Below, one piece after another: positions 1,851 through 5,273 of a stretch of DNA of 5,273 nucleotides. How positions within the stretch are numbered: the first letter of the stretch is position 1; each line of letters begins with the position of its first letter. A model generated the notes under the pieces. It searched no databases. It was given only the letters and a program-made list of their open reading frames with translations, and was not told the origin of the DNA. This DNA is from Lachnospiraceae bacterium UBA3645 (lineage in GTDB: Bacteria > Bacillota > Clostridia > Lachnospirales > Lachnospiraceae): NCBI GenBank assembly GCA_002373555.1, contig DFKM01000163.1, positions 1 to 5,273 on the forward strand, written 5' to 3'. The position numbers were made by a program, and so were the translations under genes.

Positions 1851-2561
1851 ATGCTTCGACTGGCGATCGTCGAAGACGAACAGAATTATATTGATCAGCT
1901 TACCGGGTATATCGATCGGTACCGCCGGGAACGCGGTGCCGATCTTTCCGTGACCGTTTTTCACGACGGCGATGAGATCGTGGAGAGCTATACCGGCCAG
2001 TTCGACATCATTCTCATGGATATCCAGATGCGCTTCATGGACGGCATAACCGCTGCAGAGGAGATCCGCAAAGTCGATCAGGAGGTCGTGATCATCTTTA
2101 TCACCAATATGCAGCAGTATGCCGTGCGCGGCTATCAGGTGGACGCGCTCGATTATATCGTCAAACCGGTGGAATATTACGCATTTTCACAGAAGCTGGA
2201 CCGCGCGGTGAACCGGATCCGCAAGAGCGCTGCCTCCTTTATTACGGTGCATGCGAACGGCGGCATCTACCGGCTCGTCACATCCCGGATCCTTTATATC
2301 GAGAGCGAAGGACATAATCTTCATTTTTATACCACCGGCGGCGAACTCATCTCCCGCATGAATATCAGCGATGCGGAAGAAAAGCTCTCTCCCCACGGTT
2401 TCTACCGCTGCGGGAAAGGCTATATCGTCAATCTCGAGAAGGTGGATTCCTATGTGGACGGCATCTGCAGGATCGGCTGCCATGCCATTCCCGTTAGCCG
2501 CGCGAAAAAGAAGGAATTTCTTGCCGTCATGACCGATTACATGAGCAGCCGTCTGCTGTAA
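1851..2561 (+). CDS. LytTR-family response regulator (AgrA/ComE/VirR type)
   Basis: A cytoplasmic DNA-binding response regulator of 236 residues, a normal length for the family. The N-terminal receiver domain (about 1-120) shows the acidic pocket E8-D9-E10, the phospho-acceptor D57 in FDIILMDIQM, T85 in FITN, Y102 and K105 in DYIVKP. The C-terminal LytTR domain (about 127-232) shows the characteristic FYRCGKGYIVNLEKV and PVSRAKKKEF stretches. LytTR proteins bind paired 9-base direct repeats with a ~12-base spacer through a beta-fold, and usually activate. The start ATG at 1851 has AAGGAG nine bases upstream; the ATG at 1844 is out of frame. The gene is followed by the kinase gene, whose ribosome binding site overlaps this gene's stop, so the two form a two-component pair. 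A candidate target site lies before the GH3 gene downstream. Confidence 0.97.
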   Translation: MLRLAIVEDEQNYIDQLTGYIDRYRRERGADLSVTVFHDGDEIVESYTGQFDIILMDIQMRFMDGITAAEEIRKVDQEVVIIFITNMQQYAVRGYQVDALDYIVKPVEYYAFSQKLDRAVNRIRKSAASFITVHANGGIYRLVTSRILYIESEGHNLHFYTTGGELISRMNISDAEEKLSPHGFYRCGKGYIVNLEKVDSYVDGICRIGCHAIPVSRAKKKEFLAVMTDYMSSRLL

Positions 2562-2566
2562 GGGAG
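2561..2566 (+). promoter_or_regulatory. Ribosome binding site deciding the kinase start (ATG 2572)
   Basis: AGGGAG begins on the last base of the response regulator stop and leaves five bases to the ATG at 2572. The alternative in-frame GTG at 2566 overlaps this site and would have no binding site of its own, so the ATG is preferred. Confidence 0.75.
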
Positions 2567-2571
2567 TGCTT

Positions 2572-3882
2572 ATGGACCGTTTGATTCCCGATATTCCCAG
2601 ATTCTATACCGGGCTGGCCGAATGGCTCGGCTGCATGATGATTCTGTTTACTGTCCCTCGGAGGGTCAGCCGGACAGCATTCGCGGCACTCAGTTCCGCT
2701 GTGCTTGCCGTGCTCTGCGGGTTCCTGATCCTGACGGTTGACGCCCCGCCCGGTCTGGCCTGGATCGCCTGCATGGCAGCTGCAGTCCTCATCATGTTCG
2801 GCTTTATCACCGGCTGCGCGGACATGACTGTCGTTGCTTCCGTATACTGTACCTCCGGCGCATTCCTATGCGCGGAATTTGCCGCCGCGCTGGAATGGCA
2901 GCTTCATACCTGGTTCTCCTATATCACAGGTCTGAATCCGGCAGGTTCCGTCATCATTCTCGCATGTATCTATGCCGCCGTTTTTCTAACGGTATTCCGC
3001 ATCCTCCGATCGCAGCTGAGCGCGGAATACATGTCCCGTATCACCTGGAAAGAAGCGGTCTCCTTCCTGCTGATCGCCCTGATCACCTTTATTTTCAGCA
3101 ACGTCAGCTTTTTCCTGAACAACACTCCTTTCTCCGGTCAGGTCATGGTCGATATCTTTACGATCCGCACGCTGGTGGACCTGGGCGGTCTCGCCATCCT
3201 TTTCAGCTTTCAGAGCCGGCTGTCGGAACTCATCACGCAGGAGGAGCTTGCGTCCGTGCGGCATGTCCTGTCCAGCCAGTACGAACAGTACCGCAATTAT
3301 CAGGAAAGCGAAGAAATGCTCCACATGATGCAGCATGATCTGAAGCATCAGATCGAAGGACTGCGTGCGCTGGATGACAAGGCGCAGCGGGAGGAATGGA
3401 TCGACCACATGTCCGACGTCCTGGAGGAATGGCGGCTGCCGCACAGGACCGGCAACGCCGTCTTTGACACCATCCTTGCCGCCAAGCTCCGGAAAGCCCG
3501 CACGCTCGGCATCCGGATCACCTGCGTAGCGGACGGATCGCTTCTCGACAAGCTCCATGTGGCGGATATCTGCACCATTTTCGGCAATGCGATCGACAAC
3601 GCCATGGAAAGCGTCGTCCAGATCGAAGACGAGGAGAAGCGGCTGATCCATATTTCCGTGACATCCCGGAACGGATTTATCTTCATCGGCGTGGAGAATA
3701 TTCTCGGTACGGAGATCCGGGAGGCATCCGGGACACTTCTGACCACCAAAGCAGACAAGGCATCCCACGGTTACGGCATGAAAGGCATCCGGTATGCCGT
3801 CGAGAAATACGGCGGAAACGTATCCCACAAGGTCGAGAACGGGTGGTTCATGCTGAATATCCTGATTCCGATGACAAGGTAA
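2572..3882 (+). CDS. AgrC-like sensor histidine kinase with GHKL ATPase domain
   Basis: A membrane sensor kinase of 436 residues that should phosphorylate the adjacent LytTR regulator. About seven hydrophobic segments fill the N-terminal half (near residues 11-28, 36-56, 61-81, 86-107, 124-145, 162-182, 198-215). This polytopic sensor resembles AgrC/HPK10 peptide receptors and has no large extracellular domain. A helical, Glu/Gln-rich linker (about 217-250) leads to the phospho-acceptor box QHDLKHQ with His255; the family commonly has Arg before HD, here Gln254. The ATPase domain shows an N-box FGNAIDNAMESV (N339, D342, N343) and a G-box HGYGMKGIRYAVEKYGG (G400, G402). As in HPK10 kinases, a classical DxGxG box is not obvious. 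An alternative GTG start at 2566 would add two residues. Translation is probably coupled to the regulator gene, and a terminator follows the stop. No AgrB or AgrD-like gene is visible, so the ligand is unknown. Confidence 0.95.
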   Translation: MDRLIPDIPRFYTGLAEWLGCMMILFTVPRRVSRTAFAALSSAVLAVLCGFLILTVDAPPGLAWIACMAAAVLIMFGFITGCADMTVVASVYCTSGAFLCAEFAAALEWQLHTWFSYITGLNPAGSVIILACIYAAVFLTVFRILRSQLSAEYMSRITWKEAVSFLLIALITFIFSNVSFFLNNTPFSGQVMVDIFTIRTLVDLGGLAILFSFQSRLSELITQEELASVRHVLSSQYEQYRNYQESEEMLHMMQHDLKHQIEGLRALDDKAQREEWIDHMSDVLEEWRLPHRTGNAVFDTILAAKLRKARTLGIRITCVADGSLLDKLHVADICTIFGNAIDNAMESVVQIEDEEKRLIHISVTSRNGFIFIGVENILGTEIREASGTLLTTKADKASHGYGMKGIRYAVEKYGGNVSHKVENGWFMLNILIPMTR

Positions 3883-3896
3883 TCATCACTCTTCCG

Positions 3897-3933
3897 AAGA
3901 GGTTTCCGGCCTTTGCCCGGATTCCTCTTTTTT
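3897..3933 (+). terminator. Intrinsic terminator after the two-component operon
   Basis: The outer stem AAGAGG (3897-3902) pairs with CCTCTT (3924-3929) and the inner stem TCCGG (3905-3909) with CCGGA (3917-3921). They are separated by a 2x2 T-T mismatch loop and capped by a seven-base loop. A run of six T's spans 3928-3933. It starts 14 bases after the kinase stop, so it separates the two-component operon from the GH3 gene. Confidence 0.85.
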
Positions 3934-3937
3934 GTGA

Positions 3938-3968
3938 ACAATTTGTGTCCGGAAAACGACAGTTTGTG
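3938..3968 (+). promoter_or_regulatory. Putative tandem LytTR-regulator binding site
   Basis: Two direct repeats, ACAATTTGTG (3938-3947) and ACAGTTTGTG (3959-3968), differ at one base and have a 21-base period, two helical turns. As 9-mers they have a 12-base spacer. Against the published LytTR consensus [TA][AC][CA]GTTN[AG][TG], the second copy matches 9/9 and the first 8/9 (A for the G). They sit at about -74 to -65 and -53 to -44 relative to the predicted GH3 transcription start, an activator position. A LytTR regulator is encoded one gene upstream. The match is seen directly; binding by this regulator is inferred. Confidence 0.65.
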
Positions 3969-3996
3969 ACGCCATTCCCCTAACATGATAGAAAAA

Positions 3997-4005
3997 TGGT
4001 ACAAT
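3997..4005 (+). promoter_or_regulatory. Predicted extended -10 promoter for the GH3 gene, lacking a -35 box
   Basis: TGG (3997-3999) followed by TACAAT (4000-4005, 5/6 match to TATAAT) forms an extended -10. At 16-18 bp spacing the upstream sequence is C-rich (around TCCCCTAA) and has essentially no resemblance to TTGACA, which suits a promoter needing an activator. The predicted start near 4012 leaves a leader of about 25 bases. A second AT-rich hexamer, TATAAA at 4012-4017, would start transcription inside the ribosome binding site and is less likely. Confidence 0.55.
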
Positions 4006-4023
4006 CCGCACTATAAAACCACC

Positions 4024-4030
4024 AAGGAGG
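4024..4030 (+). promoter_or_regulatory. Strong ribosome binding site setting the GH3 start at ATG 4037
   Basis: AAGGAGG, fully complementary to the 16S rRNA tail, lies six bases before the ATG at 4037. The ATG at 4033 is only two bases away from it and opens a different frame with no recognisable product. Confidence 0.9.
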
Positions 4031-4036
4031 TAATGT

Positions 4037-5273
4037 ATGCAGTCACTCATCACCAACCTGCTGGGCCCGATCTTCTACGGAATGGGCGTCAGCGAGGCGG
4101 ACTTCGCATCGTATCTTTCTTCCTGCATGAGCTACGTCTATGCAGCGATCGTTGCACTCATCGCACTGATCGTCCTGCTCATCGTGGCAGGCAAGGCAAA
4201 GAAAGAGAACCGCGGCTTCATCCGTCTCTCATCCATCGTGGCATTTCTTGCCGCCATCGCTCTTATTGCGAACCTTGTCATCACCGGCCCGCTGAAGGCC
4301 AACGTTGAGACCTTCTTAAAGGGCTCCGGCGTGAACCTGCAGGAGCAGACCATTGCCGACAGTAAAGACGTCATCAAGCGCGTCGGCGAAGAAGGTCTGG
4401 TACTCGTCAAGAACGAAGGACTTCTCCCCCTGGAAGCCGGCAACATCAATGTCTTCGGATGGGGCTCCACCAATCCCATCCTCGGAGGAACCGGTTCCGG
4501 TTCCTCCGACGGTTCCACCGCAGTAGGCATCCTCGGATCCCTTGCTGACGCAGGCTTTACGACAAACGCCGATCTGTCGAAGATCTATACGGATTACCGT
4601 GCGGACCGTCCTGTCGTTGCCATGCAGAATCAGGACTGGACACTTCCGGAGCCTACCGTTGACACCTACACGGATGCCGTCATGAGCCAGTGCAAGGATT
4701 TCTCCGACACGGCCGTGATCGTCATCAGCCGTTCCGGCGGTGAGGGCGCTGACCTGCCCGTTGACATGTACGGCGTCATCCACGGCACCTATGATATCTC
4801 CTCTCAGGTCTCCGTAACGCCGGAACAGATGGGATATTACAGAGCCACCTACACCAACAACGGCAGCTACGATGATTTCGAGCAGGGCGAGCACTATCTG
4901 GAGCTCTCCGTAACGGAAGAGCAGATGGTCGAGAAGGTCTGCTCCGAATTCGAAAAGGTCGTTGTCGTCATCAACGCCAACAACTCCATGGAGCTCGGCT
5001 GGGTCGATGAATATCCCCAGATCGGTGCTGTTATCCTCGCTCCCGGCGCTGGTAATACCGGTCTCTCCGCCCTCGGCGAAGTCATGTCCGGTGCCGTCAA
5101 TCCTTCCGGAAGAACCGTTGATACATTCGTCAAGGATCTGACCGCAACCCCTACCTGGAACAACTTCGGAAACTTCTCCTACACCAATGTGGACGATCTG
5201 AAGGAGACCATCAAGGCGAACGACGCCGCTTACGAAGGAAACCTTGCATTCGTAAACTATGTGGAAGGCATCT
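4037..5273 (+). CDS. Membrane-anchored family 3 glycoside hydrolase (GH3 C-terminal domain first), 3'-truncated by window edge
   Basis: Probably a beta-glucosidase-type enzyme acting on beta-linked sugars outside the membrane; 412 codons are visible and the frame has no stop before the edge. Residues 1-52 contain no Lys or Arg. Membrane segments lie near 34-52 and 64-84 with a basic loop between (KAKKENRGFIR), so the positive-inside rule puts the loop in the cytosol and the rest outside. From about 110 to 368 the GH3 'C-terminal' alpha/beta domain is recognisable: EEGLVLVKNEGLLPL (118-132), a Gly/Ser loop GGTGSGSSDGS (150-160), ISRSGGEGADLP (230-241), VVVVINANNSMELG (308-321), and SGAVNPSGRTVDTF (351-364). 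The visible end, FVNYVEGI, resembles the linker before the YVGYRYYE-like part of GH3 proteins. The (beta/alpha)8 barrel with the catalytic Asp is absent upstream and is expected downstream, as in reversed-order GH3 enzymes. Loss of the barrel cannot be excluded from this window. The family is firm; the substrate is unknown. Confidence 0.93.
   Translation, partial: MQSLITNLLGPIFYGMGVSEADFASYLSSCMSYVYAAIVALIALIVLLIVAGKAKKENRGFIRLSSIVAFLAAIALIANLVITGPLKANVETFLKGSGVNLQEQTIADSKDVIKRVGEEGLVLVKNEGLLPLEAGNINVFGWGSTNPILGGTGSGSSDGSTAVGILGSLADAGFTTNADLSKIYTDYRADRPVVAMQNQDWTLPEPTVDTYTDAVMSQCKDFSDTAVIVISRSGGEGADLPVDMYGVIHGTYDISSQVSVTPEQMGYYRATYTNNGSYDDFEQGEHYLELSVTEEQMVEKVCSEFEKVVVVINANNSMELGWVDEYPQIGAVILAPGAGNTGLSALGEVMSGAVNPSGRTVDTFVKDLTATPTWNNFGNFSYTNVDDLKETIKANDAAYEGNLAFVNYVEGI

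Follow-up and report, generated by a model that had tools for sequence, protein, structure and literature searches.

A candidate two-box LytTR operator in front of a GH3 glycosidase gene and its recurrence across a clade of LytTR two-component systems in Bacillota

We identified two short direct repeats followed by an extended -10 promoter without a -35 element which probably form an operator that the neighbouring response regulator (RR; gene at 1851-2561), as a dimer, would use to switch on an adjoining GH3 glycosidase gene. Our window, that is the whole stretch of DNA analysed, is the entire contig C185 (5273 bases) from an assembly with a total length of 1,960,573 bases and a completeness of 63%. 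Sequence comparison gives strong support to reading the repeats as a LytTR operator that serves GH3. The boxes are likely the landing site of the neighbouring system because boxes of this kind, with the same spacing and promoter, recur before predicted membrane-anchored glycosidases of this sort beside related regulators in many other bacteria. This recurrence across divergent loci supports the core of an earlier note on this DNA, which had read the repeats as a LytTR operator linking the neighbouring RR to GH3.

On the + strand, the window contains the end of an aldehyde dehydrogenase gene, a Cys-rich frame, a DUF212 gene, the LytTR RR gene, a GHKL kinase gene and the GH3 gene, in that order. 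The small Cys-rich frame (1026-1217, 64 aa) overlaps the end of the aldehyde dehydrogenase gene and has no Pfam match, and the DUF212 gene (divergent PAP2 family, 1339-1800) lies directly 5' of the regulator gene. The RR (1851..2561, + strand, 236 aa) consists of a receiver and a LytTR DNA-binding domain, and is a LytTR-type response regulator with both Pfam domains over cut-off (Response_reg 63.3 bits, LytTR 62.1 bits). The GHKL sensor histidine kinase follows at 2566..3882 (+ strand; HATPase_c_5 98.6 bits and hydropathy), with an ATG start probably at 2572. A predicted terminator hairpin with a T run was located 3' of the kinase gene (3896..3934, + strand; fold -18.4 kcal/mol, z -4.26). Its stem (3905-3921) and T tail were also picked up in a separate scan, and the stricter script used for the family survey did not call it as a terminator. 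Because this hairpin lies between the kinase stop and box 1, GH3 is likely on its own transcript with its own promoter. The GH3 gene (4037..5273, + strand), preceded by the ribosome-binding site AGGAGG (4025..4030, + strand), begins with the Glyco_hydro_3_C domain (Pfam) and shows this first domain only because the contig ends there. Hydropathy predicted two membrane helices near its start, at aa 34-52 (4136..4192, + strand) and aa 64-82 (4226..4282, + strand). Among the NCBIfam matches listed (for the RR, the best 25 of 67), no named family lay above cut-off for the RR, the kinase or GH3. The closest named relative by RR was a goat jejunum Lachnospiraceae assembly (L104, 97% identical), and a ruminant gut origin of the window is therefore likely. 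That locus (L065/L104, 3707 bases, genome G004) stops inside the kinase, and the same genome also carries a second module, L064, whose RR is 81% and whose GH3 is 94% identical to those of the window.

The repeats ACAATTTGTG (3938-3947) and ACAGTTTGTG (3959-3968) are alike in 9/10 letters at a period of exactly 21. Such a 9/10 match was found in 0.3% of 300 dinucleotide shuffles of the 214-base intergenic-gap region, with period 21 alone examined. An extended -10, TGGTACAAT (TGgTACAAT, 3997..4005, + strand), lies 37 bases downstream of the box 2 C without a -35, and a simple scan of 3800-4100 found no sigma-70 -35/-10 pair. Sequence, shuffles and promoter scan together confirmed what the earlier note had described here, namely direct repeats with an exact 21-base period and an extended -10 lacking a -35. 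Its repeats were where it had put them, while the conserved frame of 10-base boxes proved to lie one base rightward, with C at 3939 and 3960. In this comparative frame box 1 is CAATTTGTGT (3939..3948, + strand) and box 2, starting 21 bases after box 1, is CAGTTTGTGA (3960..3969, + strand). Fits of 9/9 and 8/9 to the published consensus had also been claimed, and these values held with the two boxes swapped: by the LytTR consensus, the second box fits 9/9 and the first 8/9. Two direct repeats with a spacer of about 12 bases, upstream of a promoter, correspond to the form of a LytTR operator. A scan for further copies, as had been proposed, found CARTTTRTG-N12-CARTTTRTG without mismatch once in the 63% complete assembly, at this site; there were 6 matches in all, the other 5 having 3 mismatches, and the backwards control gave 9. 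On the comparative matrix described below, the window site scored 17.1 and the next best place in the window 6.9, the window itself having contributed one of the 46 regions from which the matrix was built.

For the comparison, relatives of the RR were gathered regardless of GH3, as the best RR matches in 98 relative genomes plus 80 named loci. L070 and L103, which had been fetched for their GH3, were dropped since their RR match was <130 bits. The resulting 111 distinct RRs included 6 without a recognisable kinase and 10 that ended too soon, and 95 readable RR-kinase pairs remained. GH3 was nearby in 76/95 pairs. It lay <=700 bases 3' of the kinase in 58, within 3.2 kb in 9, divergent from the RR in 4 and upstream on the same strand in 5; it was farther away in 1 pair and none was shown in 18. 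As a control, 1/20 more distant LytTR RR loci had a GH3 match, about 4 kb off. Clade members belong to Lachnospiraceae, Oscillospiraceae, Clostridiaceae, Eubacteriaceae, Bacillaceae and Paenibacillaceae, and 35/397 sampled genomes of the family had an RR match at E<=1e-55. A quick RR tree of 101 rows, with SH-aLRT support only, was split by a branch (SH-aLRT 97) into 89 clade rows and a group made up of the 11 outgroup rows plus L100. A plasmid search returned 3 records, each from Paraclostridium and about 30% identical, and therefore gave no sign of a plasmid-borne module in that collection. One genome (G044) contained ten clade RR loci (L071, L075, L087, L089, L093, L097, L098, L099, L101 and L102), with GH3 near most of them and differing box letters, amounting to many parallel circuits in one cell.

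A naive count of period-21 repeats upstream of GH3 was too weak for the family, reaching >=8/10 letters in only 11/24 loci. Because of this weakness, and because several true sites have a period of 20, it was replaced by a matrix search. The 58 adjacent layouts were thinned at 80% RR identity to 46 non-redundant regions, in which expectation maximization (EM) with one matrix for both boxes found CAGTTTRTGC twice, its first C and position-9 G each being kept in 97%. The best distance between boxes was 20 in 21/46 regions, 21 in 23/46 and another value in 2/46, EM training having allowed 19-23. With distances of 11-60 left open in a leave-one-out analysis, 20 or 21 was chosen in 40/46 regions, compared with 4.3% for shuffles. 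Leave-one-out scores reached p<=0.005 in 42/46 and p<=0.05 in 44/46 regions (L090 and L096 failed at p 0.05). This analysis is not fully blind, as the positions of the sites were taken from the full model; non-independence of related loci is a further limit. Scores above the shuffle 99th percentile were obtained for 41/46 GH3 regions, versus 1/45 RR-upstream regions and 3/46 kinase-internal stretches. The pattern TGnTAnnnT occurred 36-38 bases downstream of the box 2 C in 31/41, where 0.06 per offset was expected, and -35 likeness was no better than shuffles (2.59 vs 2.57 of 6 in 32 modules). Terminator-like hairpins stood between kinase and -10 in 27/40 modules, against 3% in shuffles. Across 2,157,144 strand-bases of clade loci, 84 sites scored >11 (one L072 site is counted twice), 62 of them between the kinase and the next gene, and an extended -10 was present at 49 of these 62. 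More distant modules showed the same geometry with other letters, both boxes reading CCATATCTGC in L102, for example, and CAGTTATGCA in L095. Boxes, the 20-21-base period and the extended -10 recur across divergent loci, which is the outcome that the earlier note's check for conservation among relatives had been meant to look for. Such LytTR boxes also occur beyond the clade: 20 control loci outside it contained 7 sites >11. One of these, a box pair scoring 15.1 (L215:7181), immediately follows the kinase gene of a LytTR pair.

The phospho-acceptor Asp is D52 in 109/111 clade rows. Residues R186, N194, S216 and R217 are kept in 101, 109, 103 and 110 of 111 rows, and H155 in 106; these are putative base contacts, by transfer from other LytTR proteins. 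At RR positions 188-190, however, most clade rows have N/K/G where AgrA has H/N/S. Likeness between LytTR domains correlated modestly with likeness between boxes (rho 0.33, vs 0.11 for flanks and 0.19 for the receiver, over 820 non-independent pairs). Box and regulator thus appear to change together to a degree, and a comparison of LytTR residues with box letters gave no clear recognition code. The kinase has about six or seven hydrophobic helices followed by the kinase domain, as judged from hydropathy and an AlphaFold model (mean pLDDT 84.1, pTM 0.67), the latter with about seven membrane helices. The membrane part of this model had no usable match, the matches listed covering mainly residues 227-436.

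We propose that an outside signal, probably a glycoside or sugar, would act on the GHKL kinase at its membrane portion, and the kinase would then phosphorylate the response regulator. Two regulator molecules would occupy the two boxes on one DNA face, two helical turns apart, and the dimer would hold RNA polymerase on a promoter that offers no -35 contact. GH3, cut off from the kinase transcript by the terminator, would then be transcribed, and the enzyme would sit anchored in the membrane, its catalytic part facing outward, where it presumably acts as a glycosidase. Alternatively, the boxes might be a true LytTR site at which the regulator represses GH3, or a site serving several LytTR regulators of the cell rather than this one. 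The window's own genome (G000) has three LytTR proteins, its second module (L081) carries a similar box pair, CCGTTTGGGA/CCGTTCGTGC, and the motif letters are broadly common to the clade. However, the two modules of that genome differ in box letters. A repressor site would also more often overlap the -10 or the start, whereas here the boxes precede the -10 by a constant 36-38 bases and a -35 is lacking, which is the activated-promoter layout of AgrA and of LytTR regulatory systems (PMC4227749, PMC6193735). We therefore regard repression or shared use as unlikely, and suggest that the regulator activates GH3 rather than repressing it.

If the pair were instead an agr-type quorum sensor, a peptide signal would control the glycosidase. 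LytTR and GHKL are paired in the same way in AgrA/AgrC, and a profile of the kinase domain matched only AgrC chains in the PDB (2 sequences, E up to 0.01). However, AgrB (PF04647) was not found in the window's own genome, and it was found in 0/19 carrier genomes (RR match of at least 130 bits; 19 of 98) versus 37/79 others (37/98 overall; Fisher p 4e-5, with species not independent). Neither AgrB nor AgrD was seen in the window. Agr-type peptide signalling is very unlikely because none of the 19 carrier genomes has AgrB, and it was set aside for this lack. The label 'AgrAC-like' in the earlier note holds for the kinase domain, by its sequence-profile match to AgrC chains in the PDB, and, for lack of AgrB, does not extend to membership of agr. 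Since AgrB is missing and the neighbours include GH3, GH2, GH78 and sugar-kinase genes, a glycoside or sugar is the better guess for the kinase signal, and a guess it is.

The boxes belong to GH3 rather than to the kinase, judging by where sites are found when the genes are rearranged. Where the kinase-GH3 gap exceeds 1 kb (L109, which has a GGDEF gene between the two, L142 and L079), the site is directly in front of GH3. In L132, L176 and L180 a second GH3 unit is served by a separate site, followed by a -10 at an offset of 36 or 37. Among the divergent layouts the site is on the GH3 strand in 3/4 (L095, L102 and L099), and no site was found in the fourth (L097). An additional site in front of the RR in L157 is hinting at self-control of the RR there. 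In L064, the nearest GH3 relative with readable DNA, boxes are identical in 14/20 positions, the leader in 25/31 and the -10 in 7/9. The earlier note had named loss of the repeats beside conserved promoter bases as evidence against an operator, and this drift literally touches that clause, the boxes being less conserved than leader and -10; the changed boxes nevertheless still fit the family motif (15.5 vs the window's 17.1). Although the L064 drift speaks for it, a relic or neutral by-product, with repeats inherited along with the kinase 3' end and meaningless for GH3, is disfavoured and scarcely credible, since the spacing is held at 20-21 over RRs <80% alike, box letters in that comparison are 67% alike versus 34% for spacer and flanks, and the sites move with GH3 away from the kinase.

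The targets of the putative operator are not of a single kind. A permuted GH3, with the order Glyco_hydro_3_C sandwich, Fn3-like domain and Glyco_hydro_3 barrel, was found by Pfam in L128, L151 and L110, and L128 (from genome G006) is 87% identical to the window GH3 over the window's 412 aa. In an alignment of L128 with 2x40, an Asp and a Glu stand opposite the Asp of SDW and the Glu of SGEG, respectively, the putative catalytic residues of GH3. L067 and L109 have the ordinary GH3 domain order. Hydrophobic helices occur at both ends in 37/42 complete permuted-type GH3 frames (a set that was not thinned), and 18/19 ordinary GH3 frames have no hydrophobic end helices. Genes for GtrA-like membrane proteins adjoin the ordinary GH3 genes in L130 and L122. 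Five loci without GH3 were examined: a GH78 rhamnosidase is present in L177 and L162, GH2 plus GH78 in L163, and GH2 in L160 and, one gene further, in L091. L177, L162 and L163 have box pairs behind the kinase too. On the RR tree, targets changed between permuted and ordinary GH3 at least 11 times. The third LytTR protein of the window's genome (L083) falls in a subclade within the window's genus (L078, L082, L083) where no glycosidase was seen next to the pair; the neighbours of L078 are genes for AraC, an FGGY sugar kinase and a fucose/arabinose isomerase-like protein.

The earlier note was aware of no described case of such a gene pairing, but one exists: in Butyrivibrio proteoclasticus B316, three LytTR RRs each have nearby a secreted GH3 that carries a TM helix at its C terminus, and the authors suggest carbohydrate sensing (Kelly et al. 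2010, PMC2914790). Those loci share with ours a LytTR RR near a secreted GH3; the words promoter and binding site are absent from the main text of that paper, and the DNA site, its geometry and the breadth across Bacillota are added here. Two-box LytTR operators are well known (PMC6193735, PMC4227749), as is the permuted GH3 (PMC5104943). AgrA/AgrC at the P2/P3 promoters of Staphylococcus aureus has in common with our system a LytTR RR with a GHKL kinase, two direct repeats and poor promoters; it differs in that no AgrB was found in our carrier genomes, the target here is the adjoining glycosidase, and the base-contact motif is FFRCHNS in AgrA but FYRCGKG in the window RR and FFRCNKG in the clade (PMC4227749). 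The HdrRM/BrsRM LytTR regulatory systems likewise have direct repeats immediately before a promoter, with a spacing of about 12 bases (11-13), but consist of a LytTR protein with a membrane inhibitor, without receiver or kinase, and their repeats drive their own operon, whereas only 1/45 RR upstream regions here passes the motif threshold (PMC6193735). GlyA1 (PMC5104943; PDB 5k6l) shows the same permuted GH3 of sandwich, FnIII and barrel, also from rumen and gut Bacillota. Unlike GlyA1, the window-type GH3 has helices at both ends that would anchor it in the membrane, and the main text of the GlyA1 paper mentions neither a transmembrane segment nor a regulator. Among the Roseburia gpPULs, locus Ros-7 has an RR[LytTR] and HK among CAZyme genes, these being GH25, GH43 and GH51 with no operator described there, versus GH3 and an operator here (Sheridan et al. 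2016, PMC5320581). We found no report of a LytTR operator at GH3 in the open-licence PMC literature. New with respect to that literature are the GH3 operator and the constancy of its geometry, the wide spread of the clade, and the switching of targets from one GH3 type to the other and to GH78/GH2.

Tentatively, we would go further and view this Bacillota-wide LytTR two-component clade as a one-operator sensing family that serves exo-glycosidases. Each pair might drive its adjoining glycosidase (membrane-anchored permuted GH3, cytosolic GH3, GH78 or GH2) from the same two-box, extended -10 promoter, with targets swapped readily in evolution and divergent boxes keeping circuits apart in many-copy genomes. 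The kinase might read a plant-glycoside-like signal at the membrane, which would make the clade the Gram-positive equivalent of the sensor-regulators found in polysaccharide loci of Bacteroides. Most of what is known about LytTR pairs concerns peptide signalling, competence, bacteriocins and virulence. The glycosidase-wired LytTR clade would be a barely studied route of sugar or glycoside sensing in gut and soil Bacillota. With a fixed operator, its targets can be predicted from sequence, and genomes that hold many copies in parallel, such as G044 with its ten loci, offer a natural test of how LytTR boxes are discriminated.
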